A stretch of 64,000 nucleotides of DNA. Origin: an uncultured Nitrospira sp. (GTDB lineage: Bacteria > Nitrospirota > Nitrospiria > Nitrospirales > Nitrospiraceae). The notes beneath the pieces are model-generated. The model made no database searches and was not told where the DNA came from. It saw only the letters and a program-made list of their open reading frames with translations. This document shows positions 32,051-38,141 of this stretch, one piece after another. Every line of letters starts with the position of its first letter. Position 1 is the stretch's first letter. Where the stretch lies: positions 62,001 through 126,000 of the forward strand of contig CABVSR010000011.1 of NCBI GenBank assembly GCA_902500995.1. The letters are read 5' to 3'. Position numbers and translations under genes: made by a program.

Positions 32051-32329
32051 CTAGCACTCTTTATTCACGTCATCGACCAACGCGGCCCGGAGCGACAGAT
32101 AGTCCAACGATAGCTCCGCAAACTTGCTCTTCAACCGCCGATGTTCAACTTCCAAGCAACGAAGGCGTTCTCGAGCCGGTATCTGCTTATCGGCCACCTG
32201 CAATTTCCACCGATGCAAGGTCGCCGTCGAGACTCCATGCTTTCTCGCCAGGGTCTTCAGAGGACGAACCTGTTCCATTTCACGCACGATGGCCATGATC
32301 TGACTCTGGGAAAATCGAGACTTTGGCAT
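32051..32329 (-). CDS. IS3-family transposase OrfA-like protein (solitary)
   Basis: The 92-residue protein reads RFSQSQIMAIVREMEQ, then an HTH (LKTLARKHGVSTATLHRWK) and a leucine-zipper-like tail (LRCLEVEHRRLKSKFAELSL), the OrfA/InsE layout. No orfB follows; the next gene is wza-like. About 32338-32375 upstream holds a GTCTACAG...TTTTTCCGCACC-type stretch that could be the left IS end. Either this is a decayed insertion sequence or a retained DNA-binding protein. It sits between the antiterminator and the first export gene, so it may be co-transcribed with the locus. Confidence 0.7.
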   Translation of the reverse strand: MPKSRFSQSQIMAIVREMEQVRPLKTLARKHGVSTATLHRWKLQVADKQIPARERLRCLEVEHRRLKSKFAELSLDYLSLRAALVDDVNKEC

Positions 32330-33197: not shown

Positions 33198-33474
33198 ACA
33201 TCAACTAGTGTACAATTATGAACAACTCCACTTTCGGTATAAGTAAAACTGTCCGTCTTTATAAATCCAATACCAGCAAGGCTTTGAGCGGCATGCCTCC
33301 AGATATTTACCGATTGCCGGAATATCCCTGCCTGTGAGATTATGCGCATCGCAGGTGTATGGAATCACCCATTTAACCTAGCTTTCATTGCGTAGTCGTT
33401 TCAGCAACTACGTAGGTATATATCCATCGCGGCCGGACAGGCGCTCGGCGGGCGGTGCGTTTCCAGGAGGATCG

Positions 33475-34182
33475 ATGAACGGAACCCAAGAGACGACAGC
33501 GGCGACAGTCGTAATCATCGTCAGCAGCAATTATCTGCTCTGCCTGGGTTTGCAGAGAATTGTCGAAGCTGAAAAATGGATGCGTCTGGTCGGCCAATCC
33601 GTTCACACCCCGAACCTCGAAGACATTTTGGCGACGGAGCGACCGGACGTCGCCATCATCGACACGGAAAATGGAGCTGCCGTACCGCACGTACTCCAAC
33701 GACTGAAAGCTGCGCGACCCGGCCTGAAGACGATCCTGCTCAGCGGCTTCGACGAGGTGGAGTGCACCCGGCAAGCCTTATTATCCGGCGTCGACAGCAT
33801 TGTCCTGAAAGTTCAGCCGTCGGCGGTGCTCATTGCGACAATCGCCCATCTGACACGATCCAGCAAGGACGCCATGCTGACGCTCGGACTACATCCGGCA
33901 CACACCATGCCGAGTATTCAGAAAGAGTTCCCCGCCTTAAGCCCGGCCACTCCCACCCAGCTCAAACAATTAGACGGCCTTACCGAACGGGAATGTGAAG
34001 TGGTTCGTTTGATCAGCGAAGGGCTGTCCAATAAAGACATCGCCAACCGTCTCTGTATTTCCAGCATTACGGTCCGGCATCATCTCACCAGCATTTTCGA
34101 CAAGCTGGGGGTCTCAAACCGGCAAAAACTCCTGATCCGCGCGCATCAGAACGGATTGACCAGACCGCCTGCCTTGGCTTAA
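33475..34182 (+). CDS. LuxR/NarL-type response regulator with degenerate receiver
   Basis: ATG 33475 follows AGGAGG by five bases; an upstream in-frame ATG at 33388 is not supported. The 235-residue protein has a receiver-like domain (about 10-125) and a LuxR HTH (about 168-225: LTERECEVVRLISEGLSNKDIANRL, split here by family convention as LTERECEVVRL and SNKDIANRL). The phospho-acceptor Asp63 (AIIDTEN), Ser90 and Lys112 are present, but the acidic pair at the end of strand 1 is replaced by SSN (17-19). It is divergent from the polysaccharide locus and may control it. No histidine kinase is adjacent. Confidence 0.85.
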   Translation: MNGTQETTAATVVIIVSSNYLLCLGLQRIVEAEKWMRLVGQSVHTPNLEDILATERPDVAIIDTENGAAVPHVLQRLKAARPGLKTILLSGFDEVECTRQALLSGVDSIVLKVQPSAVLIATIAHLTRSSKDAMLTLGLHPAHTMPSIQKEFPALSPATPTQLKQLDGLTERECEVVRLISEGLSNKDIANRLCISSITVRHHLTSIFDKLGVSNRQKLLIRAHQNGLTRPPALA

Positions 34183-34502
34183 CGCAACACTCGCGCCACC
34201 TCATCAAATCACACCGCCGTACCTTGTGGGCACCAACAGGGCAGGCAGACTCGCATCAGTAGGTACTGGCCTTCCGGAGCATGAAACCGTTCGATTCATC
34301 CAAGCATAGGGCCCTGATTGAGGCGCGACAGTATCTGGCACCGTTCGCTATCGTTGCCGGCGGCTTGTGATTCCGAGGCAGTCGAGCGGGTTCCAGGCGG
34401 GACAAGGAATCGGTGGATCCACCGCCAGGGAGCGGCGCAAAGGGTATGTTCCCTTCGAAACCCTCTGTCGTGGATTCAAATCTGCTGAATGTGCAGGGAA
34501 AT
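34183..34502. other. Gene-free stretch before the tRNA remnant
   Basis: I see no convincing gene or terminator here. The right part carries one arm (34467-34483) of a 17-bp inverted repeat whose other arm lies inside the tRNA-Gly remnant. The stretch marks the outer edge of the decayed islet. Confidence 0.5.
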
Positions 34503-34536
34503 TTGGAGCGGGCGATGGGATTTGAATCCACGACAA
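34467..34536. repeat. 17-bp perfect inverted repeat overlapping the tRNA remnant
   Basis: TGTCGTGGATTCAAATC (34467-34483) and GATTTGAATCCACGACA (34520-34536) are exact reverse complements separated by 36 bases. The right arm is the T-arm part of the tRNA-Gly remnant, so the left arm is a second, inverted copy of the same tRNA segment. It could come from an inversion at the integration site or serve as an integrase arm/core site. Confidence 0.6.
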
Positions 34537-34551
34537 CATACTAGGGAAGCG
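34503..34551 (-). repeat. Degenerate 3' part of tRNA-Gly (candidate distal att site)
   Basis: Over 49 bases this matches 36786-36834, which contains the 3' part of the intact tRNA-Gly gene, at 45 positions without a gap and in the same orientation. Mismatches are at 34528, 34539, 34541 and 34544; the first 36 bases differ only once. The pair of direct repeats lies 2283 bp apart, as expected for integration at the 3' end of a tRNA gene. Confidence 0.75.
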
Positions 34552-34881
34552 GGTTATGGGTTGGAGCAATGGAATCCGCCAGGACAAGCGGTGGAACAGG
34601 AAGCTCGCAATCTCATGCGGTTACAGTGACGGAGGGACACAGGGAGGCACATGCCAAACTCGTGGTCTTAGCGCTGCTTTGTACCGTCTGTCTTCCCCTT
34701 GCGGCTCAGATTTCTCAAGATATACTTCAGCCGCTGCTTATCCCGCCGTTTGTGCTTACTCACAATCTCTCCTGTAGTCCTAGGAAACAGTACATTCCTG
34801 AAGATCGAAACTGTTCCGTATCATGGTCGGGGCTACCGTCTTGAGTCTCATCATCGGAAGGTGTGTCCCTGGGATTCGAAA
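34552..34881. other. Islet interior without a convincing gene
   Basis: A 91-codon plus-strand reading at 34569-34844 has a hydrophobic LVVLALLCTVCLPLAAQI stretch like a signal peptide, but no good ribosome site and an unconvincing C-terminus. I leave it as a weak candidate only. Nothing else is recognised. Confidence 0.35.
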
Positions 34882-35346
34882 TCAGTCCCGGAATTCACGT
34901 GAACAAGCGCCTGCCCATAACGAAGCGGCGAGGCCAGCATAAAGCGAGGGATACCAATTGCGAGGGAAAAGCAATTCAAAACCCGGCGTGCAACGCTTTG
35001 GAATGACATGGTAATCCACGATGTAAGCGATCAGAGCGATAAATATGGCACGAGGAACACCTTGGCGAGATTGGCGCATCCGCCGGGCGGGCCAAAGCGC
35101 TTCCATACAGCCGGACCAGAAGAGGCAGGCCAGCTGGTTCAAGAGGATTCCACTGACAGTGTAGCGAACCGACCAATTATTCTGCCGCGCAGCCCGCCTG
35201 CCCCACAGAATATGGCTAACAGCATTCAGGCCAGGCGCCGACCGCCCGGTTTGCATGCGGCTAGCTTGGACAATGACCATGTCCATGAGAAGTCCGCTGA
35301 CAGTCCCCGCTACGATGGTCTGATGAAGGAAGGATTTCTTTGCCAT
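34882..35346 (-). CDS. Small integral membrane protein of unknown function
   Basis: ATG 35346 follows CAGGAG by five bases. The 154-residue product has about four hydrophobic segments: VAGTVSGLLMDMVIV, TVSGILLNQLACLFWSG, AIFIALIAYIVDYHVIP and SLYAGLAASLWAGAC. The segment AYIVDYHVIPKRCTPGFEL resembles a conserved DY-x-PKR-x-TPG motif I recall from unannotated proteobacterial membrane proteins, but I cannot name the family. It lies alone inside the tRNA-bounded islet, so it may be cargo of the integrated element. Opposite-strand readings across it lack membrane or motif features. Confidence 0.6.
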   Translation of the reverse strand: MAKKSFLHQTIVAGTVSGLLMDMVIVQASRMQTGRSAPGLNAVSHILWGRRAARQNNWSVRYTVSGILLNQLACLFWSGCMEALWPARRMRQSRQGVPRAIFIALIAYIVDYHVIPKRCTPGFELLFPRNWYPSLYAGLAASLWAGACSREFRD

Positions 35347-35613
35347 GGAGCTCCTGCAATTGCGTTGCAGCCCCTTATCCCGTGAGTGCAGTCAGCAAAG
35401 GGGCCACTCACAGACGCCATCTTTCGTGTTCTCGAAATCGTGATGGTCCGCAGAAATTTCATGAGTCGGATCCGACTTCAGTGTTCATCGTTACAAGGTA
35501 CGGGAACTGGTTGATACTGGGGGCTTCCCTGGGGGCGGTTCCCTCGCATGGATCTTTTGGAGGCCGAGTGAGTGACCGACTTGGAGTCGGCCTCTGCGCT
35601 ATGAGCAGGGGGT
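35347..35613. other. Non-coding islet stretch with a hairpin
   Basis: No gene is seen. A compact hairpin (CCGACT at 35576-35581, AGTCGG at 35585-35590) is nested in a wider AGGCCGA...TCGGCCT dyad. The right part borders the probable right end of the IS3 remnant. Confidence 0.4.
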
Positions 35614-36120
35614 GGCCTGCTGCCGGTTTAATTGACACTACCCTCGGCTCATTCCGCCTGCCGTTCGAACTCCATCGGACTGAGATAGCCTAACGTAGGG
35701 TGCCGCCGGCGAGGATTATAAAAGCGCTCGACGTAATCGAACACATCGGCTTTCGCCTGGTCGCGGGTGCGGTAGGTGGTCCGTGCCCTGCGCTCAGTTT
35801 TTAGCGAGGAGAAGAACCTTTCCATCGCGGCGCTGTCCCAGCAATTGCCGGAGCGGCTCATGCTACAGGTCAGCCTGAGCCCGCCAAAAGCCGTGGGAAC
35901 GGCGCACTGGGTATTGGCTACCCCGACCCCAGCCCACAATCTTGTCGTAAGGCGGCGCCCGCTTCTTGGCCGCCTCAAGGTCATCCTCAGAGGCGTGAGC
36001 AGCCGCACTACCGAGAAGGGCGCGGTGAAGGTCCAACCCATAGCCGGACTGTAATTGAAGCACAGTGAGTCGGCGAGACGCCGATGTCTGCCTTGGTCCG
36101 TGCGAGGATAAGCGATACAA
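35614..36120 (-). pseudogene. Broken IS3-family transposase OrfB (C-terminal part)
   Basis: The last 75 codons (to a stop at 35649) are a clean OrfB end: LTCSMSRSGNCWDSAAMERFFSSLKTE and FDYVERFYNPRRRHPTLGYLSPMEF, read here in pieces. The upstream part continues in another frame (AAKKRAPPYDKIVGWGRGSQY, the degenerate counterpart of the HSDRGSQY motif), so there is a frameshift between GSQY and LTCSMS, and the N-terminal DDE half is missing. TGTCAATTAAACCGG on the minus strand ending at 35637 is a likely IS right end. It is a remnant and cannot be active alone. Confidence 0.8.
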
Positions 36121-36234
36121 AAACGATGATACGGCTAGCCTAGCCTGCTAGGTTGGAAGATACTTGGGAAGTCAGCGGAGAACGCTGCCCTATCTCATTT
36201 TGTGGGAGTGGTGCAGAGAAGCGGGAGGTCACAC

Positions 36235-36447
36235 GTGAAACCTTCATTAGTCGATATCGGATGTAAGCTGACGGCGGCAAGAGGCATGGCCGAACTGTTC
36301 GGTGAATCCCACCCGGAGCAGCAGCCGGCGCTGCTGGAGTTTGTTACCACGGTGAATCATCTGTGGAAAGAGCTGTTCGATACCGTTTATCCCCGACAGA
36401 CACCTACTGAGGAGCGACACGATGGCCGCGACCACCTACACCCTTGA
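36235..36447 (+). CDS. Small protein of unknown function
   Basis: GTG 36235 follows GGGAGG by about eight bases and gives 70 residues beginning VKPSLVDIGCKLTAARGMAELFG. It is soluble, with a helical centre (EQQPALLEFVTTVNHLWKEL). It overlaps the next small ORF by 26 bases in another frame, the usual sign of a two-gene unit. I do not recognise the family. Context is the tRNA-bounded islet, so it may be accessory cargo. A toxin-antitoxin pair is possible but nothing specific supports it. Confidence 0.5.
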   Translation: MKPSLVDIGCKLTAARGMAELFGESHPEQQPALLEFVTTVNHLWKELFDTVYPRQTPTEERHDGRDHLHP

Positions 36448-36601
36448 GGATGTCCTTAAGGCCTCAGCTGCGTCAGCGGGTGAAGCGCGACGACTGGCAG
36501 ACATTTGCCCCGAGTATTCCAGCGCTCTTACTCGCTATGCTCAGGGGATCGAAGAGGCGCGGGAAACCTTGATTCGTAGGACCCGCCTTGATGCAGGCTA
36601 A
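36422..36601 (+). CDS. Small protein of unknown function, overlapping the previous gene
   Basis: ATG 36422 to TAA 36601 encodes 59 residues. The sequence starts MAATTYTLEDVLKASAASAG and continues with a charged helix (EARRLADICPEYSSALTRYA), ending RRTRLDAG. It is predicted soluble and helical. The start lies inside the end of the preceding small gene, which argues for translational coupling. I cannot assign a function. Confidence 0.45.
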   Translation: MAATTYTLEDVLKASAASAGEARRLADICPEYSSALTRYAQGIEEARETLIRRTRLDAG

Positions 36602-36787
36602 CTCATTCTGCTGTCCGTGACCGTGGTCTGGCTATCGCGGATAAAAGTTGTTCCTCATCCCACCCTTCCCACCACTCATCCCTGCACCGAATGCGCTATC
36701 CCTGCGGCTCCCGAGTGACACCGTATCAGAAACCGGAAGCTAGAAGTGGTATTAGGCGGAAGTCATACGGAAGCGATTGGAAATATT

Positions 36788-36862
36788 TGGAGCGGGCGAT
36801 GGGATTTGAACCCACGACAACTTGCTTGGGAAGCAAGGACTCTACCACTGAGCTACGCCCGC
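36788..36862 (-). tRNA. tRNA-Gly (CCC anticodon)
   Basis: The minus strand reads GCGGGCG (acceptor), TA, D-arm GCTC AGTGGTA GAGT, anticodon stem CTTGC with loop TTCCCAA and GCAAG, T-arm GTGGG TTCAAAT CCCAT, then CGCCCGC, T and an encoded CCA. All stems pair (one G-U in the D-stem) and the total is 75 bases. The loop gives anticodon CCC, glycine. Its 3' half is duplicated 2283 bp away, marking it as an integration site. The tyrS gene lies just to the right. Confidence 0.95.
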
Positions 36863-36923: not shown

Positions 36924-38141
36924 TCAATCCTTGTACTCGGCCACGGCAAACTTCCGCCGACCGACACGCAAACGCAGGAGCTGGCCGGCGGCCAACGGAA
37001 CCGCGGCATTCGCATCGGTCATCTTCTGCTCATTGAGCTCCACTCCGCCCTGCACGATCAGGCGTCGAGCTTCGCTCTTGCTGGGCACCAGTCCGGTTTT
37101 TGCGATCAAATCGACCAGACCGATCGTGGGCATGGCCGCATCTTTGACATCGGAGGGCGTGAGCACCACATGCGCGTCCGGCTGTTCGGGGAACTCCCGC
37201 GCCTGGAATTTCTGTTGAAAGGCGCTTCTGGCTTCGCGGCCGGCATCAGCCCCGTGATAGCGGGCCACGATCTGCTCCGCGAGGCTCTGCTTCGCGTCCA
37301 TCGGGTGCGCGGCCTTCACCGCTGCCAAATTTTCGGTGGTCAATAACTCATAGTATCGATGCATGAGCGTATCGCTGATCGACATGAGCTTGCCGAACAT
37401 ATCGGCCGGATGGTCTTCCAGCGCGATATAGTTGCCGAAGCTTTTGCTCATCTTGCGGACGCCGTCGGTCCCCTCGAGCAGGGGCATGGTGATGACCGCC
37501 TGCGCCTCCTGCCCGTAGTCCCTCTGCAGATCCCGCCCCATCAAGAGGTTGAACTTTTGATCCGTACCGCCCAACTCGATATCGGCCTTCAGCGCCACGG
37601 AATCATACCCCTGGATCAAGGGATACATGAACTCATGGATGCTGATCGGCGTGCCCTCGGTGTACCGCTTGTGAAAATCTTCCCGTTCCAGCATGCGCGC
37701 CACCGTATAGTGGGCGCTCAATTCGATCAGCCCGTCGGATGACATCGTGCTCATCCAGCGGCTATTGAATTCCACCTGCGTCTTTGCCGGATCGAGGATC
37801 TTAAAGATCTGGCGTTCGTAGGTCTTGGCGTTTTCCAGCACCTTTTCCTTCGACAGTGCCACGCGGGTTTCGGATCGCCCGGTCGGATCGCCGATCATGC
37901 CGGTGAAATCGCCGATGAGAAAGATGATCTGATGCCCGAGGTCTTCGAAATGCTTGAGCTTGTGAATCAACACCGTATGGCCCAGATGAAGATCGGGCGC
38001 CGTGGGGTCGAACCCGGCTTTGACACGAAGGGGACGGTTCTCCTTGATGGAGCGGGCCAGCTTGGCCTCCAGCTCGCTTTGCTGAATAACCTCAACAATC
38101 CCTCGAAGTATAAGATCGAGCTGCTGCCCTAACGGTGTCAC
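36924..38141 (-). CDS. tyrS: Tyrosine--tRNA ligase
   Basis: The 405-residue class Ic synthetase charges tRNA-Tyr. The HIGH-type motif is HLGH at 52-55 ([15 protein letters not shown]), the KMSKS loop is [11 protein letters not shown] near residue 235, and the C-terminal S4 RNA-binding domain reads [20 protein letters not shown]. The length and HLGH form are those of the TyrS subgroup with the longer catalytic domain. It is the last gene of an apparent operon lpd, HHH gene, tyrS: its ATG overlaps the HHH stop by four bases. The tRNA-Gly gene follows in the same direction. Confidence 0.96.

Follow-up and report, generated by a model that had tools for sequence, protein, structure and literature searches.

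Analysis of a 64-kb stretch of DNA from an uncultured Nitrospira sp. (64,000 nucleotides; hereafter the window) revealed a 2.3-kb islet behind tRNA-Gly(CCC) which is very probably an eroded tRNA island, left by an element with a tyrosine integrase that inserted at this tRNA gene and later decayed. An earlier note on this DNA had offered two readings of the islet, and our analysis favours the one in which integration at the tRNA 3' end was followed by loss of the integrase. The evidence comes from empty sites in relatives, matching islands at the same tRNA and the 3' end of an integrase gene abutting the tRNA. Analysis of the outer flank also revealed a family of structured repeats that follow tRNA genes across Nitrospiraceae and beyond.

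Direct repeat of the tRNA-Gly 3' part

The two ends of the islet are marked by the following features.

36788..36862, minus strand, intact tRNA-Gly(CCC) (ARAGORN; Rfam tRNA 69 bits; CCA encoded)
36786..36834, minus strand, 3' part of tRNA-Gly, the repeat copy within the intact tRNA (anticodon loop to CCA plus 2 nt)
34502..34550, minus strand, displaced 3' fragment, probably of the original tRNA-Gly, at the distal end of the islet (45/49 with the intact copy)

Comparison of the two ends revealed an ungapped 49-mer direct repeat with 45 of 49 positions identical, the copies lying 2,284 bp apart; one base longer, 34501-34550 and 36785-36834 are identical at 46 of 50 positions. The repeat extends from the final anticodon-stem base pair (GCTTCCC) to the CCA plus 2-3 nt. 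Since the runner-up match to the tRNA-Gly 49-mer in the whole window, on both strands, scores only 28/49, the direct repeat cannot be ascribed to chance. A same-orientation, ungapped repeat of the tRNA-Gly 3' part with 45 of 49 identities had been claimed in the earlier note and is borne out here, the coordinates being correct within one base. The locus has the two parts by which genomic islands in tRNA genes are recognized, an intact tRNA and a same-orientation 3' fragment displaced downstream, and the intact tRNA-Gly(CCC) is the regenerated attachment site at the tRNA-proximal end of the islet.

Empty sites in relatives and the outer flank

Comparison with relatives made use of the genes on either side of the islet and of a repeat that lies just outside it.

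33388..34182, plus strand, LuxR-type response regulator, outer neighbour conserved in relatives with an empty site (Pfam GerE 7e-18; synteny)
36924..38141, minus strand, tyrS, conserved inner neighbour upstream of the tRNA
34349..34491, minus strand, degenerate tRNA-tail repeat adjoining the islet on its outer side, an ancestral neighbour of the tRNA (covariance model R1: E=0.0032, 17.7 bits)
34466..34482, plus strand, 17-nt inverted T-arm copy at the front of the tail repeat (perfectly complementary to 34519-34535 in the remnant)

The order tyrS then tRNA-Gly is conserved in the genus, and relatives (L036, L039, L044, L046, L048 and others) carry tyrS, a single tRNA-Gly and luxR without the islet. 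These are the empty sites for which the earlier note had proposed to look, and an arrangement of 2.3 kb with its tRNA remnant fixed in all relatives, named there as an argument against an integrated element, was not found. In S2bin.16 (L036; TyrRS identity 95%), luxR lies ~300 nt after the tRNA. The window flanks joined at the repeat align continuously with L046, the identities being 45/49 within the repeat, 123/167 on its upstream side and 48/55 on its far side, whereas the inner flank of the islet, used as a control, reaches 30/55 against L046. Because the joined flanks align in this way, synteny suggests that 34502-34550 is the original tRNA 3' half and that the 3' half of the intact gene arrived with the insert. 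The closest relative, L036, is without a tail repeat after the tRNA, and its outer flank is partly alignable (34/55).

The tail-repeat copy at 34349-34491 is the best hit of covariance model R1 in the window. Its first 34 nt are 100% identical to the N. defluvii copy; the front part is intact and the terminal tRNA-end copy is decayed. In N. defluvii (L100), L046 and others the repeat follows the intact tRNA, and its ~172-bp unit ends in a second copy of the last 25 nt of the tRNA. The inverted T-arm region has a DNA fold z of -4.15; it was considered as a part of the islet and rejected, as in relatives it belongs to the older neighbouring repeat. Neither this inverted T-arm nor the integrase stump described below is mentioned in the earlier note. 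A better copy of the tail repeat than that of the window is found in the same genome behind tRNA-Ser(GGA) (contig C1; L285:384-509), and a tail repeat also stands behind tRNA-Ser(GGA) in G001, G018 and G088.

Intact integrase islands at tRNA genes

Genes of one family of tyrosine integrases (two members share 61% identity; Pfam PF00589 1.9e-21) lie directly behind tRNA-Gly(CCC) at L166, L169, L172, L174, L178 and L181, and the same family occurs behind tRNA-Pro, -Arg, -Thr and -Met at other loci. Islands for which the distal copy was found are 6.7-13.6 kb long, with repeats starting at the anticodon loop. At tRNA-Gly(CCC) of other Nitrospiraceae, islands with an intact integrase measure 7.6 kb (L172), 13.6 kb (L174) and 9.4 kb (L169); the repeat starts at the same base as in the window in L172 and L174, and one to two bases later in L169. 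Larger integrase islands at the same tRNA, which the earlier note had suggested as a check, are therefore present with a matching repeat boundary. The 25-nt copies of tail repeats were considered as distal ends of integrase islands and rejected for L172, where the distal copy starts at the anticodon loop with no repeat core before it.

The 9.4-kb island of L169 (L169:3000-12600) encodes, besides the integrase, a primase-helicase, a terminase small subunit (Terminase_4) and an HK97-type capsid protein (Phage_capsid), and represents a candidate capsid-forming phage satellite in the family of Nitrospira. The island of L172 encodes an excisionase-like HTH protein and a primase. Because of these genes, at least some tRNA-Gly(CCC) islands look like phage satellites. 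By analogy with the islands at this tRNA that carry capsid, terminase and primase genes, the original element behind the islet was likely a phage satellite, now decayed. A fuller version of the same islet, from which the parent element could be named, was not found in relatives.

Integrase stump next to the tRNA

Analysis of the sequence next to the intact tRNA revealed one further feature.

36720..36785, plus strand, remains of the 3' end of a tyrosine-integrase gene, oriented towards the tRNA (nhmmer profile)

The nhmmer profile combines 12 sequences from relatives, each an integrase 3' end, or a remnant, adjacent to tRNA-Gly. Its top hit in the 64-kb window is 36720-36785 (model positions 63-129 of 130, E=0.01), and the next hit has E=6. 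The hit lies on the expected strand and abuts the tRNA; pairwise comparisons with integrase ends gave z values of 4-5.5, in agreement with the profile. Judged from 66 bp of decayed sequence at E=0.01, this segment is the remnant of a tyrosine-integrase 3' end, the rest of the gene being gone. The islet holds no tyrosine integrase gene beyond this ~66-bp 3' stump, and for this reason it was filed as an eroded remnant and not as a functional island. It is probably unable to move by itself.

Gene content of the islet

Between its two ends the islet carries four open reading frames.

34882..35346, minus strand, 154-aa ORF, probably a membrane protein (membrane-like stretches; homologues in other genomes)
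35649..36041, minus strand, C-terminal fragment of an IS3-type transposase (Pfam rve_2 2.3e-13, rve_3 3.5e-10)
36202..36447, plus strand, ORF81, first gene of an overlapping small cargo pair (homologues in G136, G081, G087 and G104)
36422..36601, plus strand, ORF59, second gene of the pair (shortened form of the 185-198-aa protein encoded after the ORF81 homologues in L157 and L158)

The small membrane protein, broken IS3 transposase and two overlapping small ORFs described in the earlier note were all recovered, the word membrane referring to membrane-like stretches in the protein. Nothing significant was found in Pfam or PHROGs for ORF81, ORF59 or the 154-aa protein, the last of which matches no Pfam family above cut-off. 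Phage-satellite genes for replication, packaging or helper response were found neither in the ORF list of the islet nor in its Pfam search. The G+C content of the islet is 56% compared with 59% for the window, which is the 14th percentile of same-sized stretches and uninformative on origin. Outside the islet, at 32051-32329, a 92-aa ORF reads like an IS3-type OrfA (the helix-turn-helix part of the transposase) and adjoins a polysaccharide export gene.

A search for the small genes in other tRNA-bounded islets, also proposed earlier, was successful for the ORF81/ORF59 pair and unsuccessful for the membrane protein. ORF81 and ORF59 resemble an adjacent gene pair of L157 and L158, with Smith-Waterman scores of 113 and 68, respectively; shuffled sequences averaged 23 and 25, and 1000 shuffles gave no score as high. 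The pair of L158 sits inside a 10.1-kb interval between tRNA-Arg(CCT) and its fragment, and that of L157 lies ~2.1-2.9 kb behind a tRNA-Met. At both loci (L157:9423-10219 and L158:9062-9842) the pair is conserved as adjacent genes for small proteins of 66-73 aa and 185-198 aa; the larger partner has an internal repeat, and its short form is kept in the islet of the window. Homologues of the 154-aa protein occur in 5 other genomes of 147, in surroundings like those of ordinary chromosomal genes and outside evident islands. As these contexts look chromosomal, the protein was not used as evidence for the element, and its gene may have arrived separately from the rest of the islet.

Origin of the islet

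We propose that an element encoding a tyrosine integrase entered tRNA-Gly(CCC) by recombination, the crossover falling at the anticodon end. With its own tRNA 3' half the element would have rebuilt the gene, and the original 3' half would have been displaced, now by 2.3 kb, while staying beside its old neighbours, the tRNA-tail repeat and then luxR. During the subsequent decay the integrase gene would have been lost except for ~70 bp of its 3' end; an IS3 element would have arrived and then been truncated itself, and a few small cargo genes would have been left. The order of these losses is one that we infer. On its own, the islet is an ordinary example of the known decay of tRNA islands.

The other reading in the earlier note was a small non-autonomous satellite, that is, an element with matching attachment sites, an integrase supplied in trans and a natural size of 2.3 kb. 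Both attachment copies are recognizable (45/49) and a small conserved gene pair is retained, as such a satellite would have it. However, the decayed integrase 3' end still abuts the tRNA, and because of this, loss of the integrase is favoured over a satellite. A broken IS3 element lies in the middle of the islet, no second copy of the islet was found in its own genome, and among the genomes searched no other member of the genus has ORF81. Nor does the genome hold a close integrase, its best match to the island integrase being only 27% identical. A satellite is consequently improbable, and the minimal size, singled out earlier as unusual, reflects erosion.

Two explanations that dispense with an integrase-bearing island are less probable still. 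The remnant could be the terminal tRNA-like copy of a tail repeat, of the 25-nt kind, with DNA inserted later, and short tRNA-end copies behind tRNA-Gly do arise from tail repeats in relatives; but at 49 nt the remnant is longer than the mostly 25-nt copies of tail repeats and, like the repeats of integrase islands, begins in the anticodon loop; it is also followed by the front of a tail repeat just as the intact tRNA is in relatives. This origin is considered highly unlikely. A purely local event, in which slipped replication or ectopic recombination duplicated part of the tRNA gene with no mobile element involved, would suit a duplicated length of only ~50 nt, yet it has to contend with a repeat boundary identical to that of integrase islands at the same gene, with the empty sites in relatives and with the integrase stump; we give it very little credence. 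An eroded island thus remains the preferred reading.

Comparison with known tRNA-associated elements

Genomic islands in tRNA genes with a 3' fragment and an anticodon-type site A form the Islander class (PMC4383910). The islet shares with this class the regenerated tRNA at one end, the same-orientation displaced 3' fragment at the other end and the anticodon-end crossover, and its intact relatives share the tyrosine integrase beside the tRNA. It differs in its size of 2.3 kb and in having no integrase gene, so that the Islander integrase filter would reject it; the islet represents a type of decayed tRNA island that is missed by finders requiring an integrase. Islands of relatives at the same tRNA resemble PICI, capsid-forming PICI and P4-like satellites in having an integrase, an excisionase-like HTH protein and a primase, and in L169 a terminase small subunit and a capsid protein, whereas the islet keeps none of those genes except the integrase stump.

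The tRNA-tail repeat family

Analysis of tail repeats in other genomes revealed a common anatomy, consisting of an inverted T-arm of the host tRNA, three covarying hairpins and a terminal copy of the last 25 bases of the host tRNA. The flanks beyond the unit match the tRNA flank of unit-free relatives (L061 against L055, L072 and others, 83-92%), and on these alignments the tail repeat appears to behave as a precise insertion or, in the unit-free relatives, a precise loss. We examined 65 copies with a tRNA within 500 nt upstream; as they were gathered by similarity to one tRNA-Gly copy, the proportions do not amount to a census. Of these copies, 58 finish with at least 22 of the 25 last bases of their upstream tRNA, 48 of them with all 25. 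In all 58 the terminal copy is closer to its own tRNA than to any other isotype in the sample, and 42 of the 58 have an extra base in the T-stem copy. The host isotypes in the examined set are Gly, Thr, Asp, Met, Ala and Ser, and Leu and Arg neighbours were found in other families of the phylum. Ten further hits are without a detected upstream tRNA, and several of these follow a tRNA fragment. The core tree, built from few columns and with weak support, clusters imperfectly by tRNA type (18 changes against a shuffled mean of 34) and is compatible with per-tRNA lineages plus some retargeting.

Repeats behind E. coli tyrT, known as rtT (rttR, Rfam RtT), were reported by Bosl and Kersten 1991, as cited in PMC4986893 and PMC2965389; according to these papers, tRNA transcripts release the rtT RNA, which has a link to the stringent response. 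At E. coli tyrT we counted three perfect 19-nt repeats of the tRNA 3' end at a spacing of 178 nt, with a partial inverted copy and hairpins between them. The tail repeat resembles these ~178-bp units, which stand behind a tRNA and each end in its 3' end. The rtT-type arrangement, in which a unit of ~150-190 nt stands behind a tRNA and closes with a repeat of that tRNA's 3' end, was found in the same 58 of 65 copies in relatives, and G217 has three tandem units of ~183 nt behind tRNA-Gly(GCC). In contrast to rtT, the tail repeat occurs behind at least six tRNA isotypes with ends matched to each host, its inverted T-arm match is better, and it gives no RtT hit in Rfam. The likeness described here is one of layout. 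In Rfam, the repeat and the window region matched no family above cut-off, RtT included, and weak matches to whalefall-1, HgcF and a tmRNA fragment were treated as chance. A literature search for such repeats in Nitrospira found no paper.

Predicted structure and role of the tail repeat

The consensus of 33 aligned units consists of a closing helix, in which the inverted T-arm pairs with the terminal copy, and three hairpins. In this alignment 96.8% of cells pair (shuffled 89.3%), two-sided changes occur at 21 of 35 pairs and in 102 cells against 24.6 in shuffled controls, and pairing falls to 32-55% in slid controls; these controls flatter the structure, which was derived from the same alignment of related rows. 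G-U pairs (33) far exceed A-C pairs (5) in the pairing table, which suggests that the repeat is transcribed from the strand of the tRNA. Of 51 minimum-energy folds of tRNA plus unit, 49 have the 5' acceptor strand paired with the distal copy, and 33 of those 49 have the T-arm paired with the inverted copy as well.

Our tentative model, which we regard as possible rather than probable, is that these undescribed, widespread structured RNA repeats of Nitrospirota may control tRNA maturation and move by precise insertion behind tRNAs with occasional retargeting. The tRNA precursor would switch between the cloverleaf and an alternative fold, with the T-arm sequestered by the anti-T-arm and the 5' acceptor strand paired to the distal copy. 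The folds are energy predictions that ignore modified bases, tertiary contacts and co-transcriptional folding, and for this reason the switch is offered as a hypothesis; the route of movement is likewise hypothetical. A structured RNA with host-matched ends throughout a phylum would repeat the E. coli rtT puzzle on a much larger scale. By comparison between hosts one could then ask whether tRNA tails act in the regulation of tRNA maturation, serve as marks of integration sites or are mobile on their own.

Several individual loci deviate from the simple arrangement of one unit behind one tRNA. The tandem units of G217 (L274:445-1007) each end in the tRNA 3' end, with matches of 169-175 nt and a spacing of ~183-190. 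At L196:1475-1680 the tail repeat is joined directly to the 5' half of a tRNA-Gly whose normal 3' half is missing; only the terminal copy of the repeat remains as a 3' end, and no tRNA is predicted. In G105 (L233 and L234; G105:C1:143600-165700), tRNA-Thr(TGT) is followed by a tail repeat and, 2.3 kb on, by a second one; ~20 kb further a tRNA-Thr 3' fragment is followed by another repeat, and the locus is possibly a 20-kb island with repeat-tagged ends.
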